A stretch of DNA of 64,000 nt from Paenibacillus pedocola (GTDB taxonomy: Bacteria; Bacillota; Bacilli; Paenibacillales; Paenibacillaceae). Within the stretch, counting starts at the first letter, position 1. Every line of letters begins with the position of its first letter. Where the stretch lies: NCBI RefSeq assembly GCF_031599675.1, contig NZ_CP134223.1, forward strand, positions 6,368,501 through 6,432,500. Reading direction: 5' to 3'. Below are positions 3,673 to 50,335 of this stretch, piece by piece. The notes below the pieces were generated by a model, which saw only the letters and a program-made list of their open reading frames with translations, did no database searches and was not told where the DNA came from. The position numbers were made by a program, and so were the translations under genes.

Positions 3673-4070
3673 TTGGCAGCCTCCTTCCCGGGAGTTTGGT
3701 TTGATTTCATTCTGCTATCCAATAAGTATTGAGAAAGGCAGTCCTGAACCCGGCCCGTTCCATATTCGCGTGGCTGGCCGAACCGAACTCCACATCTGTA
3801 TAAACCGTTTTGTTTTGACGGGATTGAGGTACAGTAGGGGGATTTCCTCCAACTAAACTCATGTGGACGGGAGGGAGACAGACCCTAGTAGGAATTTCTC
3901 CCACTACTATCTCCCAGATGGCTAAAAATCAGCCCGATTTCTGGCGAAAATGAAACCCACTCAACACACCTGAACTTATTATAATGATTTCTGCGCTTCC
4001 ATTTCCACATTTAAACCTTGAAGCTGCCTGCAAGCGGGCTACCTTCCTTGGCCCTAAGTCTACGTGTTCA
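3673..4070. other. Gene-poor stretch
   Basis: No convincing coding region, RNA or repeat is seen between the WYL regulator and the terminator at 4071. Open frames here lack ribosome-binding sites and recognisable sequence. Confidence 0.5.
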
Positions 4071-15487: not shown

Positions 15488-16324
15488 TTAGCTAAGAAAA
15501 TTCCTTTTTATCTGAATTGCGATTTCTGCCGGAGCGTTCTTATTATCCGGTCCGAAATGATCTAATTGGGGAAACACGACGGCCTGACTTTCAGCGATCG
15601 TATGATTCAGCGTTTGAATCATTTCTTTTATAGTGTTCGGGCTTTTCCCGCCTGCCATTAATAGTGTACCCGCACCTATTTCCCGGTATTGCGAGTACAA
15701 AGCTTGAAAACGTCTGACTTCCCGGTGCTCCTTTAAATTTTCGGGCAAGAGCCTCTGGATTTTATCCCAGCGTTCCCCGCGTACCATTATACTCAAAATA
15801 AATTTTGCATACCACATTGGCAGTCGCGTTAGCGGAGTGTGTCCGGATCCTCTTACAAAACTTGCAAATGCTGCTCTGGAATCGTTCTTATCCATTGCTC
15901 TCTCGTAATCATCCAGCCAATCCCAGTTTGTTGTCTCTATACACACGCCGGGTTCATAAACGGCCAACCTGGTAACAGAGGGTTCAAGCCTTGCAAACTG
16001 CAGTGAGACAAGACCTCCGTAGCTATGTCCGAACAAAAAGGAGGCGCCCGTTACCTGCTTTATCATTTGGAGATCCTCGATTTCCTTCTCCATGGAATAT
16101 TCCGGTCCTTGCGGACCGCTCCGTCCATGACCTCTCCGATCTATTACATGGACCGTAAATGAATCCGACAGTTCTTCGGCCAATTTTGCAAAATCACCAG
16201 AATCGCTAAGGGCCCCGTGAACGATAATCAAGCCCGGCCCTTTGCCGATGCTTTTATAACTAATTTCAGTGCCATCCTTCGAAACAATCGCGGAGGTTTT
16301 AAAAGCGGATTTAACATTTGACAT
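15488..16324 (-). CDS. Alpha/beta hydrolase
   Basis: A 278-residue alpha/beta-hydrolase fold protein. Motifs in order: oxyanion region IIVHGALSDSGDF (about 34-46), DRRGHGRSG (about 64-72), nucleophile elbow GHSYGG (serine about 102), and the C-terminal histidine in LDHFGP (about 253). The acid is likely in the segment near GAGTLLMAGGKSPN, where the usual Asp is not evident. Substrate unknown. First gene of a two-gene operon with the TetR regulator; the operator at 16349-16367 lies 25 bases upstream of its start. Confidence 0.85.
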   Translation of the reverse strand: MSNVKSAFKTSAIVSKDGTEISYKSIGKGPGLIIVHGALSDSGDFAKLAEELSDSFTVHVIDRRGHGRSGPQGPEYSMEKEIEDLQMIKQVTGASFLFGHSYGGLVSLQFARLEPSVTRLAVYEPGVCIETTNWDWLDDYERAMDKNDSRAAFASFVRGSGHTPLTRLPMWYAKFILSIMVRGERWDKIQRLLPENLKEHREVRRFQALYSQYREIGAGTLLMAGGKSPNTIKEMIQTLNHTIAESQAVVFPQLDHFGPDNKNAPAEIAIQIKRNFLS

Positions 16325-46175: not shown

Positions 46176-46193
46176 TTACTTGTGGTACGGTTC
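46176..46193 (-). repeat. rlmH-3'-end (att-like) repeat
   Basis: Minus strand GAACCGTACCACAAGTAA; it differs from the rlmH end at two of 18 positions. Preceded by GCGGT, as in the other copies. Confidence 0.75.
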
Positions 46194-46265: not shown

Positions 46266-47129
46266 TTAGGCTGAAGGATTAGCAAGGAAAAGAGCAATGT
46301 AATGATCATTGATGCGGAAGTCATTCCCACGATTAACTAACATACAAAATTGTTCATTTCGTTGTTCAATTAGACCAACACCAGAGAACAAATAACCTTT
46401 ATGTTCACTGACTAGATCTTTTAAATCTTGGAAATAACGAGCAAAGTTAACTGGGGCATTATCAAAGAAATATTCTTCAAAATACACTCCAAAGAAATGA
46501 TTACCGTCTTGCAGTCGAAGAACTGCTCTTTTCTCGCCTACTTCAACATTTTGAATGTAACCTTCTATACTTCTAGTCAAATTCAAATCATCAACAGTTA
46601 AATTGATAAGTGATCTATTTCTGACAGAAGGCTCCCTAACATTATCCTCTCCACTTGCTAGATCAGCATTTGGACCAGTCGTGGGAACAATATTTAAAGA
46701 GGTATTCGCACCAGAGTCTGGATCAACTGTCCGTCTGGATCTCTTCTTCTTTTTTCCAGATGTAAGTTTCTCAGTTCCTGCCGCTTCCTCTTTTCTCTTT
46801 TTCCTCAAATTGTCGAGTACACTTTTCACATGCTTATCACTTAATTCCATAGTTGATGTTGCCATGGATTTTTGTTTATTGGCTGTAGCTTCTCTTTCAA
46901 AGTAATCAATACAATCCTGTATGTGATCCTCTTTTTGCCAAGTTTTGAAGTGAGCTCTTACCTTCCCTTTGGGAACGTATGACAGTCTGGCTACGCAACC
47001 TGGATAAGTGCAGTACAAATTATTTTTGACATCAGTGTAATCTTCGTGTTGCTCAATATTAAAAACTGTAACCATTTCTTCATTTTCCTCGGTTTTATAA
47101 ATTGCTTCATAGATTGGCATATACCGCAA
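46266..47129 (-). CDS. Hypothetical protein with CoiA-like zinc-finger N-terminus
   Basis: A protein of 287 residues (TTG 47129) or 284 (ATG 47120, better spaced from GGGAAGA). Residues about 35-75 hold YCTYPGCVARLSYVPKGKVRAHFKTW...HIQDC, a C-x4-C...H...H-x3-C arrangement like the zinc-binding N-terminus of competence protein CoiA and proteins from defence islands. A basic, low-complexity linker (KKRKEEAAG, GKKKKRSRRTVD) follows. The C-terminal 120 residues are a beta-rich domain (SIEGYIQNVEVGEKRAVLRLQDGNHFFGVYFEEYFF) that could bind nucleic acid. Function unknown. It stands alone in a hot-spot segment. Confidence 0.6.
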   Translation of the reverse strand: MRYMPIYEAIYKTEENEEMVTVFNIEQHEDYTDVKNNLYCTYPGCVARLSYVPKGKVRAHFKTWQKEDHIQDCIDYFEREATANKQKSMATSTMELSDKHVKSVLDNLRKKRKEEAAGTEKLTSGKKKKRSRRTVDPDSGANTSLNIVPTTGPNADLASGEDNVREPSVRNRSLINLTVDDLNLTRSIEGYIQNVEVGEKRAVLRLQDGNHFFGVYFEEYFFDNAPVNFARYFQDLKDLVSEHKGYLFSGVGLIEQRNEQFCMLVNRGNDFRINDHYIALFLANPSA

Positions 47130-47430
47130 TCTTCCCTTCCAGGTTTTTATATTTTGGGACAGGAAGAAATCTACTATGTACCCCCTAGCTTTTTGCCGAT
47201 CTTACAAAATCCGTTTCTTATATCCGAACGAAAGGCGAACATAAAATGAACATTTCATAATATCCTTGCCTAGTATGACTGAAGTCTGTTAGTATAAACT
47301 CATCGTGAATGGAAACGGGTAATTGTATTAAGTATGAAATCTCAATGTCCCCACATTGAGAGACTTACCGAACGGACAATGAAATACTTCTGTCCCATTA
47401 TCATTGTATAATTTGCTATACCTAAAGTCA
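47130..47430. other. Gene-free stretch in the hot-spot
   Basis: AT-rich, with the promoter region of the zinc-finger gene and a small hairpin (CTCAATG-TCCCCA-CATTGAG near 47341). No gene seen. Confidence 0.45.
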
Positions 47431-47470
47431 AAAAGGCTAAGGTCGCTATCAGGCGATTTTAGCCTTTTTT
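47431..47470 (+). terminator. Rho-independent terminator
   Basis: AAAAGGCTAA (47431-47440) with TTAGCCTTTT (47459-47468), inner TCGC/GCGA, T-run. No intact gene precedes it on the plus strand, so it is probably a relic or belongs to a lost gene. Confidence 0.7.
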
Positions 47471-47525: not shown

Positions 47526-47552
47526 TTAGCACTCTGTTTTACTGAGTGCTAG
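47526..47552 (+). promoter_or_regulatory. CIRCE-like HrcA operator
   Basis: TTAGCACTC (47526-47534), 9-base spacer, GAGTGCTAG (47544-47552). This matches the CIRCE consensus TTAGCACTC-N9-GAGTGCTAA except for the last base. TAATAT at 47557-47562 may be the -10 box. It precedes the decayed gene at 47613. Confidence 0.8.
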
Positions 47553-47612
47553 AAAATAATATTCGACAATAGACTCTTACTACCGATTCGGGCTAATTCT
47601 GGAGGATCTCAT

Positions 47613-48052
47613 ATGTACATCATTCAAACACAAACCAACATTAGCTCTCTGATGAATAACTTCTCAACTTCTACAACTCTCATTGCTTATATCAATCAAT
47701 ACTTCCAACACCTATAATCTGAACTCCTCAGCGACAAAGACGATACCGTCACCTTCGACCAGCACAACTCCATCATTCTTCTAGAACCAGACGACGATCT
47801 TCACAATCTCAACTACGCAGGATTGCACGGTGACGATCCCTTTACACGCTCCTTCGAGTTCGTAGAAATCTACGACCTTGGAGACATTACAGAATACTTT
47901 TGATGCTGGACAACGATTTTTTGGTCACATTTTTCGTAGTGGTCGGAGTACTTGATGAGGAGGCAGAACAATGGCTGAACGAAATCGCAATAAGGTGCCC
48001 AAACAGCAGACACACTGACCCCGACACACCGTGTACGTGTTGTACTTCGTAG
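47613..48052 (+). pseudogene. Decayed hypothetical gene (internal stop and probable frameshift)
   Basis: ATG 47613 has GGAGGA 6 bases upstream. The frame MYIIQTQTNISSLMNNFSTS...QYFQHL is broken by TAA at 47715-47717, then continues in the same frame (SELLSDKDDTVTFDQHNSIILLEPDDDLHNLNYAGLHGDDPFTRSFEFVEIYDLG) to TGA 47901. Overlapping by ATGA, a second frame continues to 48052 with MLDNDFLVTFFVVVGVLDEEAEQWLNEIA, which reads like the natural continuation. I infer one ancestral protein of about 130 residues, of unknown function, with one nonsense and one frameshift change. It is under the CIRCE element. Confidence 0.5.
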
Positions 48053-48344
48053 CACAGACAATCACAACCTGAACCCTACGCTGATGGTTCAGACTTCTAC
48101 CTTGCAATTGAAGAAACAACAGCAGATTGCCGAGTTTGTTTGGGAAGAAGATGGTTTTGCTGATGCTCCACATCTCCACTGCTCCAAAGTGCTGACAGCC
48201 ATTCGCCGGGCAAGTGAGCTTTCAAACACACTTTTGTCTGTCACAATTAAAGATCCGTTTCAGATCAACGATAGTCCGCTCCCCTCAACAACCACATCTT
48301 CCAGCCTCAACGATGAATTAGAACTTGATGATCTTCCATTCTAA
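47971..48344 (+). pseudogene. Frameshifted hypothetical gene ending in an SSB-like tip
   Basis: ATG 47971 follows GAGGAGG with ideal spacing and encodes MAERNRNKVPKQQT; a stop then follows. A different frame, open from about 47994, carries HRVRVVLRSTDNHNLNPTLM and runs to 48344, ending LNDELELDDLPF. Joining the two needs one frameshift near 48010-48020. The acidic DDLPF end equals the protein-interaction tip of single-stranded DNA-binding proteins, although no OB-fold is visible. An intact alternative would be an 86-residue protein from ATG 48084, but it has no ribosome-binding site. Confidence 0.45.
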
Positions 48345-48400: not shown

Positions 48401-48655
48401 CTAAACGCTTCTGTAACGTAACTTGTCTACAATTTTGCCTGACGTGGTCTCTTGCTCTTGACTGCCTTCTGGCTGTAAGTAGAAATTAGTCACTGAAACG
48501 TCTAATGCTCCTGTCACTTTAGCAAGCACATCAACCGAGCATACCTTTTCTGCACGTTCCAATTTTCCTACGTAACTTTCGTGAACCCCTAATGCATGAG
48601 CCAGCTCTTCCTGACTCATGCCTTTCTCTTTTCGAAAATGCGAAAAAACTTGCCC
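48401..48655 (-). pseudogene. XRE-family regulator truncated at an att-like repeat
   Basis: The frame GQVFSHFRKEKGMSQEELAHALGVHESYVGKLERAEKVCSVDVLAKVTGALDVSVTNFYLQP is an XRE helix-turn-helix. It is open right up to the rlmH-like repeat at 48656, and no start codon precedes the HTH; the first ATG (48619) lies inside the domain after helix 1. The gene has therefore lost its first residues at the repeat boundary. The C-terminal tail (to residue 72 from that ATG) is unstructured. Confidence 0.65.
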
Positions 48656-48673
48656 CTACTTATGATACGGTTC
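48656..48673 (-). repeat. rlmH-3'-end (att-like) repeat
   Basis: Minus strand GAACCGTATCATAAGTAG; one change in 18 from the rlmH end, and synonymous (CAC to CAT). Flanked by GGTGA upstream and GGGGCAAG downstream. Confidence 0.8.
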
Positions 48674-48782: not shown

Positions 48783-49820
48783 ATGAATAAAATTGGTTTT
48801 AATCAAAAACATAGTTCTAATTCTTACTATACTTTAAAGAGTAATTCTCTAATTGTATTGAAATTTATTCTGCCTATTTTTCTTACTATTATTTTATTGC
48901 TATTAATATTTTCTTTTTTCCCCCATACTGCTTGGATTTATTCTACGGGTTCCCCCTACTCCATAAAAATGAACGATTTCAGAGGGAGGATTGATAGTAA
49001 GGCACTCATTATTTCCTCAAAAGATAAACTTACTGGAACCATAGTAAATCAAAACAAATTGACAGTTAACTATAACAGCGCTAACTATAACATTGAACCG
49101 GGTGAACTCGTAATACGTTATGGACATTCTAGTTCGAGAGACTTTTGGGATACTATTAGTTCTGATTCCCTTATTCAATTGAGTATGCTCAATACGCATT
49201 TAGACAAACTAAATATAGAAAAGAAATATTTGTTACAAAAGTTTGATGATTTTCCAAAAAGCTATTTGATGTCTATGTCAGGGGATGAATTTGATATAAG
49301 TGCTGTTGTTTACGAAAAAAACTTCACATGGAATCTTCAAGGTGATTTAGAGGTGTTCATAAAAGGAAAAAGGTTTATTCAAGATACACCTGTATATGAT
49401 TTGAGTTTTTCTAATAGTGATTCACAGCATCCCACTCTTTTTCAGTTGATTGGATTTACCAACGTAGAGTTAACTATACCTGAGGAGAAGGGTGAAATTC
49501 TATTCTCCGGTCAAAGTAATGAATCAAATAGTTTTTTTGAAAATGGTAATCTAAACTTTAATCAGACAGCAACAGAAAAACAATTCAGTTTGGATGGTAA
49601 ATCACTAATAGTGACCTCACTCAAGAATGAAAATCTTAGTGTAGCTTATTCAAATAAAAAAAAATCCACTTTAGAAGTCTACGGAAATATTAGGAAAGCA
49701 TCTTTAACAGGTAACAGCCTATTTCTAAACTTCAAACAATGGGCTGTAGAGAATATTTCTACAGTGGTTGGGACATTAGTTGCAATGTTTATAGGCTTTA
49801 TTATTATCAAAAAGAATTAA
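48783..49820 (+). CDS. Hypothetical membrane-anchored protein, sole gene of a 1.2-kb repeat-bounded segment
   Basis: A 345-residue protein not recognised. One membrane helix near the start (SLIVLKFILPIFLTIILLLLIFSFF, about 24-48), a long Ser/Asn-rich beta-like outer part (about 50-320), and a second helix at the very end (ISTVVGTLVAMFIGFIIIKKN). It may expose a large domain outside, anchored at both ends. The start follows GCTGGAGG. Very AT-rich compared with rlmH next to it. It is the only gene between two rlmH-end repeats and convergent with rlmH. Confidence 0.7.
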   Translation: MNKIGFNQKHSSNSYYTLKSNSLIVLKFILPIFLTIILLLLIFSFFPHTAWIYSTGSPYSIKMNDFRGRIDSKALIISSKDKLTGTIVNQNKLTVNYNSANYNIEPGELVIRYGHSSSRDFWDTISSDSLIQLSMLNTHLDKLNIEKKYLLQKFDDFPKSYLMSMSGDEFDISAVVYEKNFTWNLQGDLEVFIKGKRFIQDTPVYDLSFSNSDSQHPTLFQLIGFTNVELTIPEEKGEILFSGQSNESNSFFENGNLNFNQTATEKQFSLDGKSLIVTSLKNENLSVAYSNKKKSTLEVYGNIRKASLTGNSLFLNFKQWAVENISTVVGTLVAMFIGFIIIKKN

Positions 49821-49855: not shown

Positions 49856-49873
49856 CTACTTGTGATACGGTTC
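49856..49873 (-). repeat. Original rlmH-3'-end (att-like) site
   Basis: Minus strand GAACCGTATCACAAGTAG, the last five codons and stop of rlmH (EPYHK-stop). Reference copy for the four downstream repeats. Confidence 0.85.
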
Positions 49874-50335
49874 CCCCCGATTAATCTTCACCGCACGATA
49901 AATCTGCTCTACCAGCACCAGCCGCATGAGCTGATGGGGCAGCGTCATGCGGCCGAAGCTCATGCGCTGCTGGGCGCGGCGCATGACGTCATCGGAGAGG
50001 CCATGGCTGCCTCCGATGACGAAGACGACATGGCTCGTCCCGTAGGTGCCGAGCCGGTCGATTTCGGCGGCAAGCTCCTCGGAGCTCCAGAGCTTGCCGT
50101 CGATCGCGAGCGCAATGACATGCGCTTCGCTCTTGATGTGCGCGAGGATACGCTCGCCCTCGCGTACCTTCACCTGGACAACCTCAGCGTCGCTGAGATT
50201 GTCCGGGGCCTTCTCATCCGCCACCTCAATCATCTGGAACTTGAGGTAGGGGGTCAATCGCTTGGCGTACTCCGCAATGCCGCTCACCAAATATTTTTCC
50301 TTCAATTTGCCTACGCCGATGATTTGAATTAACAT
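49856..50335 (-). CDS. rlmH: 23S rRNA (pseudouridine1915-N3)-methyltransferase RlmH
   Basis: A 159-residue SPOUT methyltransferase, full length for the family. [114 protein letters not shown] carry the SAM-binding trefoil-knot motifs ([25 protein letters not shown]). It methylates pseudouridine 1915 of 23S rRNA on assembled ribosomes. The conserved C-terminus YHK is encoded by the repeated 18-base sequence, so insertions there leave the protein intact. Confidence 0.97.

Follow-up and report, generated by a model that had tools for sequence, protein, structure and literature searches.

Why should an operator for the heat-shock repressor HrcA stand in a mobile region, beside genes that are not chaperones? 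It is mainly chaperone genes that make up HrcA regulons, and where a mobile element reads host stress the case usually cited is the SOS response. We have studied such a site, a CIRCE, in a stretch of 64,000 nucleotides of the Paenibacillus pedocola chromosome (the window). A first-pass annotation had placed it 60 bases before a decayed small gene in a mobile region, and suggested either heat-shock control of a cassette function or capture of a promoter.

The site reads TTAGCACTC-TGTTTTACT-GAGTGCTAG. Compared with the CIRCE pattern TTAGCACTC-N9-GAGTGCTAA it matches at 17 of the 18 fixed positions and has the exact 9-base spacer, so that the match originally claimed is confirmed.

47526 to 47552, unstranded: CIRCE (HrcA operator), 17/18 match, 9-base spacer; kept in 7/7 close copies of the unit

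Only 0.01 sites with three or fewer mismatches are expected by chance in the window, and this is one of just four at that threshold in the whole 6.47-Mb, single-contig genome, in which a reversed CIRCE control pattern gave no sites. The other three precede groES-groEL, hrcA (then grpE) and htpG, and each stands shortly after a −10 sequence that is recognizable by eye. The groES operator also carries one mismatch, equalling the window site at 17/18. The host HrcA is encoded by a 343-aa frame under its own CIRCE, with grpE next. The CIRCE before htpG (locus L002, genome positions 3799603-3802629) is perfect, so that in this host htpG, too, appears to belong to the class I (HrcA) regulon.

In what kind of region does the operator lie? 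The window contains three copies of a repeat of the rlmH 3′ end, GAACCGTATCATAAGTA, all in the same orientation, where none would be expected by chance. Two tandem cassettes are present.

46177 to 46193 (−): att-like repeat of the rlmH 3′ end, at the far cassette end
46266 to 47120 (−): g287, intact, 284 aa from ATG; four invariant N-terminal Cys/His; C-terminal OB-like domain
48657 to 48673 (−): att-like repeat of the rlmH 3′ end, between the two tandem cassettes
49857 to 49873 (−): end of rlmH itself, identical to the att-like repeats
49856 to 50335 (−): rlmH, 159 aa, the insertion target

These features mark the locus as what is left of an SCC-like (cassette-chromosome) element at rlmH, and support the earlier assignment to a mobile region. 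Several Bacillota have already been reported to possess SCC-like islands at rlmH, which in P. pinistramenti occur as tandem copies (PMC10061031), and the window resembles these islands and the SCCmec family in its rlmH-3′-end repeats and tandem cassettes. It is unlike the known islands in possessing the CIRCE and the g287 control unit, and the window copy is without a recombinase: no Ccr-type recombinase was found near it, the sole PF07508 match of the genome being 2.1 Mb away, and there was no primase-helicase among the window cassette genes. Att-like repeats are also found beside most relatives. In Paenibacillus sp. N3.4 the CIRCE-g287 unit is held in a 12-kb element, from the att at 4022 to that at 16038 of locus L150. 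As in the SCCmec family, this element encodes a CcrB-like large serine recombinase (CcrB model E = 2e-124, below the equivalog cut-off) and a P4-type primase-helicase (TIGR01613, E = 3e-69), together with RadC. The second tandem cassette of the window holds one 345-aa frame (48783-49820, + strand), which has hydrophobic ends and no Pfam family.

To the right of the operator, the remains of an operon (gene1-gene2-gene3 in N3.4) and of a regulator are found.

47613 to 47989 (+): gene1 pseudogene; stop at codon 35, frame change
48009 to 48344 (+): gene2 remnant, N-terminal part gone; 40% identity to residues 62-146 of the intact N3.4 gene2
48401 to 48673 (−): remnant of a Cro/CI-type regulator, HTH_3, truncated at the att-like repeat; 47% to that of N3.4

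The gene1 frame begins at 47613, in agreement with the 60-base distance given before, and the decay of this gene is equally clear: there is a TAA at codon 35, the reading frame shifts at about 47890 and again at about 48000, and the start of gene2 is absent. Gene1 (about 130 aa) and gene2 (about 180 aa) are fused in two genomes. Of 400 Paenibacillaceae genomes, 73 have matches to the gene1/gene2 family model, and many of these matches are weak or partial. No Pfam, PADLOC or NCBIfam family was found for gene1, gene2 or gene3, nor any PHROG match for gene1 or gene2; the gene1 family was not found in plasmid and phage collections, and a fold model of gene1 (pLDDT 85.5) gave no convincing PDB match. 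Sensor-kinase matches in the gene1 search (L012 and similar) were taken as chance.

Does a CIRCE accompany intact versions of this gene elsewhere, a check that the annotation had proposed? It does so once. In N3.4 (L062/L150) gene1 is intact, with a perfect CIRCE 86 bases upstream. N3.4 is the sole exception, since about 40 other distinct gene1 loci have no CIRCE even at four or fewer mismatches. Gene1 copies without a CIRCE have a different common leader (noted in L056-L060, L066, L067, L075 and L077-L079), with the motif ATATATCAT about 100 bases upstream, then a GACCCC...GGGGTC-type hairpin and a ribosome site.

What, then, does the operator accompany? The window and N3.4 are similar at the DNA level from g287 up to the final bases of the CIRCE, and no farther. 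A search with g287 gave close copies in G142, G241, G319 and G020, and in each of these a CIRCE stands about 0.4 kb upstream; a DNA search of the order added a copy in G527, which belongs to a different family. The CIRCE is present in all seven close copies, which span two GTDB families; it is perfect in five and has a single mismatch in two. Gene1 lies beside three of the seven, intact in N3.4, decayed in the window and as a remnant (by eye) in G020. We looked for it beside the other four and found none, and in all of these the CIRCE is perfect. The two copies with a decayed gene1 are the two with a CIRCE mismatch. In G031 and G012 g287 has been lost and the CIRCE is decaying; that of G031 stands before a pPIWI-RE-associated gene. 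More distant g287 relatives had neither CIRCE nor leader, and nearly all were without att-like sites. Between the copies of G319 and G527, genomes of different families, the CIRCE spacer is the same and the control region is 83% alike, which is what a mobile unit should show. G020, G142, G241, G319, G507 and G527 contain four CIRCEs each (at two or fewer mismatches), one being that of the cassette.

Across the seven copies 16 of the 18 arm positions are invariant, compared with 15 of 66 neighboring columns (Fisher p = 4.5e-7, which serves only as a guide because related sequences are not independent). The dyad continues beyond the consensus to 13 pairs, with some paired changes. By this measure the operator arms are under purifying selection. 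Judged by its sequence and conservation, the site is a genuine HrcA operator in the control region of the SCC-like cassette, of which it is an ancestral and selected part. The CIRCE is fixed in the g287 control unit, also where gene1 is absent, and accompanies the leftward unit in 7/7 close copies; a heat-shock promoter captured by the decayed gene is thus not the reading that we prefer. What stands of the first-pass interpretation is a genuine CIRCE, within a mobile region, ahead of a decayed accessory gene, with one intact homologue that has a perfect CIRCE; the operator is not a feature of the gene1 family.

The region between the CIRCE and g287 has an organization of its own. Scanning the alignment for sigma-A-type promoters revealed two that are present in 7/7 copies, one directed toward g287 (TTGACT-17/18-TACAAT or close) and one opposed to it inside the leader (TTGYCT-17/18-TANTAT).

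47403 to 47431 (−): predicted sigma-A promoter of g287, TTGACT-17-TACAAT; in 7/7 aligned copies
47121 to 47396 (−): conserved leader of g287 with the invariant hairpin CTCAATGT-GGGG-ACATTGAG; start deduced from the promoter
47266 to 47295 (+): predicted antisense promoter, TTGCCT-18-TAGTAT; in 7/7 aligned copies
47302 to 47470 (+): putative antisense RNA of about 170 nt, ending at the terminator
47430 to 47470, unstranded: terminator-like hairpin between the CIRCE and the g287 promoter; T6 on the + strand

The antisense RNA region of the window folds better than all of 200 shuffled sequences (z = −4.3), and no Rfam match was found. RNAalifold covariation is approximately zero for the leader, and so we claim no conserved RNA structure beyond the CIRCE dyad, the terminator and the invariant hairpin. 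The predicted RNA and the g287 leader would overlap over roughly the first 95 nt of the leader, in a plasmid-type antisense layout. Opposed conserved promoters together with a structured RNA suggest that g287 may be under antisense-RNA control. Such control is known for plasmid replication genes of the pIP501 and pT181 types, and the predicted arrangement resembles these in its opposed sense promoter and in a structured RNA of about 170 nt that reaches a terminator and overlaps the 5′ leader. It is unlike them in that g287 does not belong to the known Rep proteins. About 95 bases, the terminator among them, separate the CIRCE from the g287 promoter, and directly beside the CIRCE there is no sigma-A promoter, in either direction, that all copies have in common.

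The g287 protein has no Pfam, PADLOC or NCBIfam family and no Rep family match. In a structure model (pLDDT 73) its OB-like C-terminal domain matches Stn1 and tRNA-synthetase anticodon-binding domains, and from this model it is probably a nucleic-acid-binding protein. It was not found in viral contigs, and the only relative in plasmids was a 25%-identical gene on an 8.6-kb Priestia plasmid.

What might the operator do in the cassette? In unstressed cells HrcA is bound to CIRCE, and it depends on GroE for its activity (PMC3842655). We think it rather likely, on the strength of the conserved operator, that the host HrcA ties a cassette transcript to proteotoxic stress. In unstressed cells GroEL-activated HrcA would occupy the CIRCE, keeping low a transcript that starts from or passes through it. 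Misfolded protein would titrate GroEL and HrcA would leave the operator, whereupon the cassette transcript would rise together with those of groESL, dnaK and htpG. Where it is present, as in N3.4, the rightward gene1-gene2-gene3 operon would be the natural readout, because it starts 60-90 bases past the CIRCE and behind the terminator. It cannot be the sole reason for the operator, because four cassettes keep a perfect CIRCE without gene1. Some features speak against HrcA control of a cassette transcript: the cassette site, unlike the three chaperone CIRCEs, has no conserved promoter next to it, the g287 promoter is remote and past a terminator, and in four of the seven copies there is no gene1 to be controlled. 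Control on the g287 side, or a block of read-through from rlmH into the cassette, might also operate. In the window the rightward operon is dead, and only g287 and the control region are intact.

Could the dyad be something other than an HrcA operator, namely a chance match, an RNA hairpin or the site of another protein that resembles CIRCE? The dyad can form an RNA stem of 13 pairs with paired changes. Nevertheless we consider this very improbable, given the chance expectation for the window, the retention of arms, 9-base spacer and sequence in seven copies while the flanks vary, and the fact that a bare hairpin would not require the exact CIRCE letters. A narrower function, in line with the first-pass annotation, is also conceivable, in which the CIRCE specifically represses gene1-gene2-gene3, and cassettes without gene1 have lost it too recently for the operator to have decayed. 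The order of terminator, CIRCE and gene1 with its ribosome site is common to the window and N3.4, where gene1 is intact; a gene1 remnant also lies past the CIRCE in G020, and the mismatch occurs exactly in the two copies with decayed gene1. Set against this are the perfect CIRCEs of the four cassettes without gene1, in two host families, and the roughly 40 gene1 loci that lack a CIRCE and have their own leader, and we regard such exclusive control as unlikely.

The opposite assignment puts HrcA to work on the g287 side, through a leftward transcript from the CIRCE or by blocking read-through from rlmH or neighboring cassettes. The 7/7 association with g287 and the decay of the CIRCE where g287 is lost speak for it, as does the frequent position of the CIRCE at the rlmH-proximal cassette edge, 25-300 bases from an att-like repeat. 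However, there is no conserved leftward promoter at the CIRCE, and a terminator separates it from the conserved g287 promoter; this assignment seems doubtful to us. Finally, the window CIRCE could be a relic without effect in a stranded, decaying cassette, as the loss of gene1 and gene2, the one changed arm position and the distant PF07508 match would allow. But g287 and its control region are intact and the 17/18 match equals that of the groES operator of the same genome, and we hold a relic to be improbable. The reading that we favor remains that of a cassette transcript tied by host HrcA to protein-folding stress.

HrcA operators and SCC-like islands are each already known; among the papers searched, none was found that links HrcA and CIRCE with cassette chromosomes. 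The site is like those of the CIRCE/HrcA class I regulon (groESL, hrcA-grpE-dnaK) in operator sequence, spacer and the presence of HrcA in the same genome, and unlike them in standing beside SCC-like cassette genes instead of chaperones, with no −10 box directly before it. In Lactobacillus plantarum HrcA or CtsR sites have been predicted at prophage genes (PMC3842655), a further case of a heat-shock repressor motif predicted at mobile-element genes. Unlike the cassette CIRCE, those sites come from a single genome with weaker motif scores, and the accessible text of that study shows no conservation. More tentatively, and with rather less confidence than in HrcA control itself, we suggest that a family of SCC-like cassettes may have adopted HrcA/CIRCE as a stress sensor, such that folding stress and not DNA damage would switch a cassette function, beside a nucleic-acid-binding gene controlled by antisense RNA. 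If true, selection for a CIRCE in the SCC-like cassettes of several genera would mean a mobile element wired to protein-folding stress, and a possible heat response of cassette functions would have an explanation that can be tested. How SCCmec is excised at 42°C differs between its types in staphylococci (PMC13296057).

Defence-type genes were also observed near the unit and its relatives. ParA and SIR2-like genes precede the CIRCE-g287 unit in G527, the pPIWI-RE-associated gene lies past the decaying CIRCE in G031, and a NACHT gene adjoins the distant g287 relative on the Priestia plasmid (positions of defence-type genes: L152, 6888-8814; L153, 7854-9240; L154, 483-3764).
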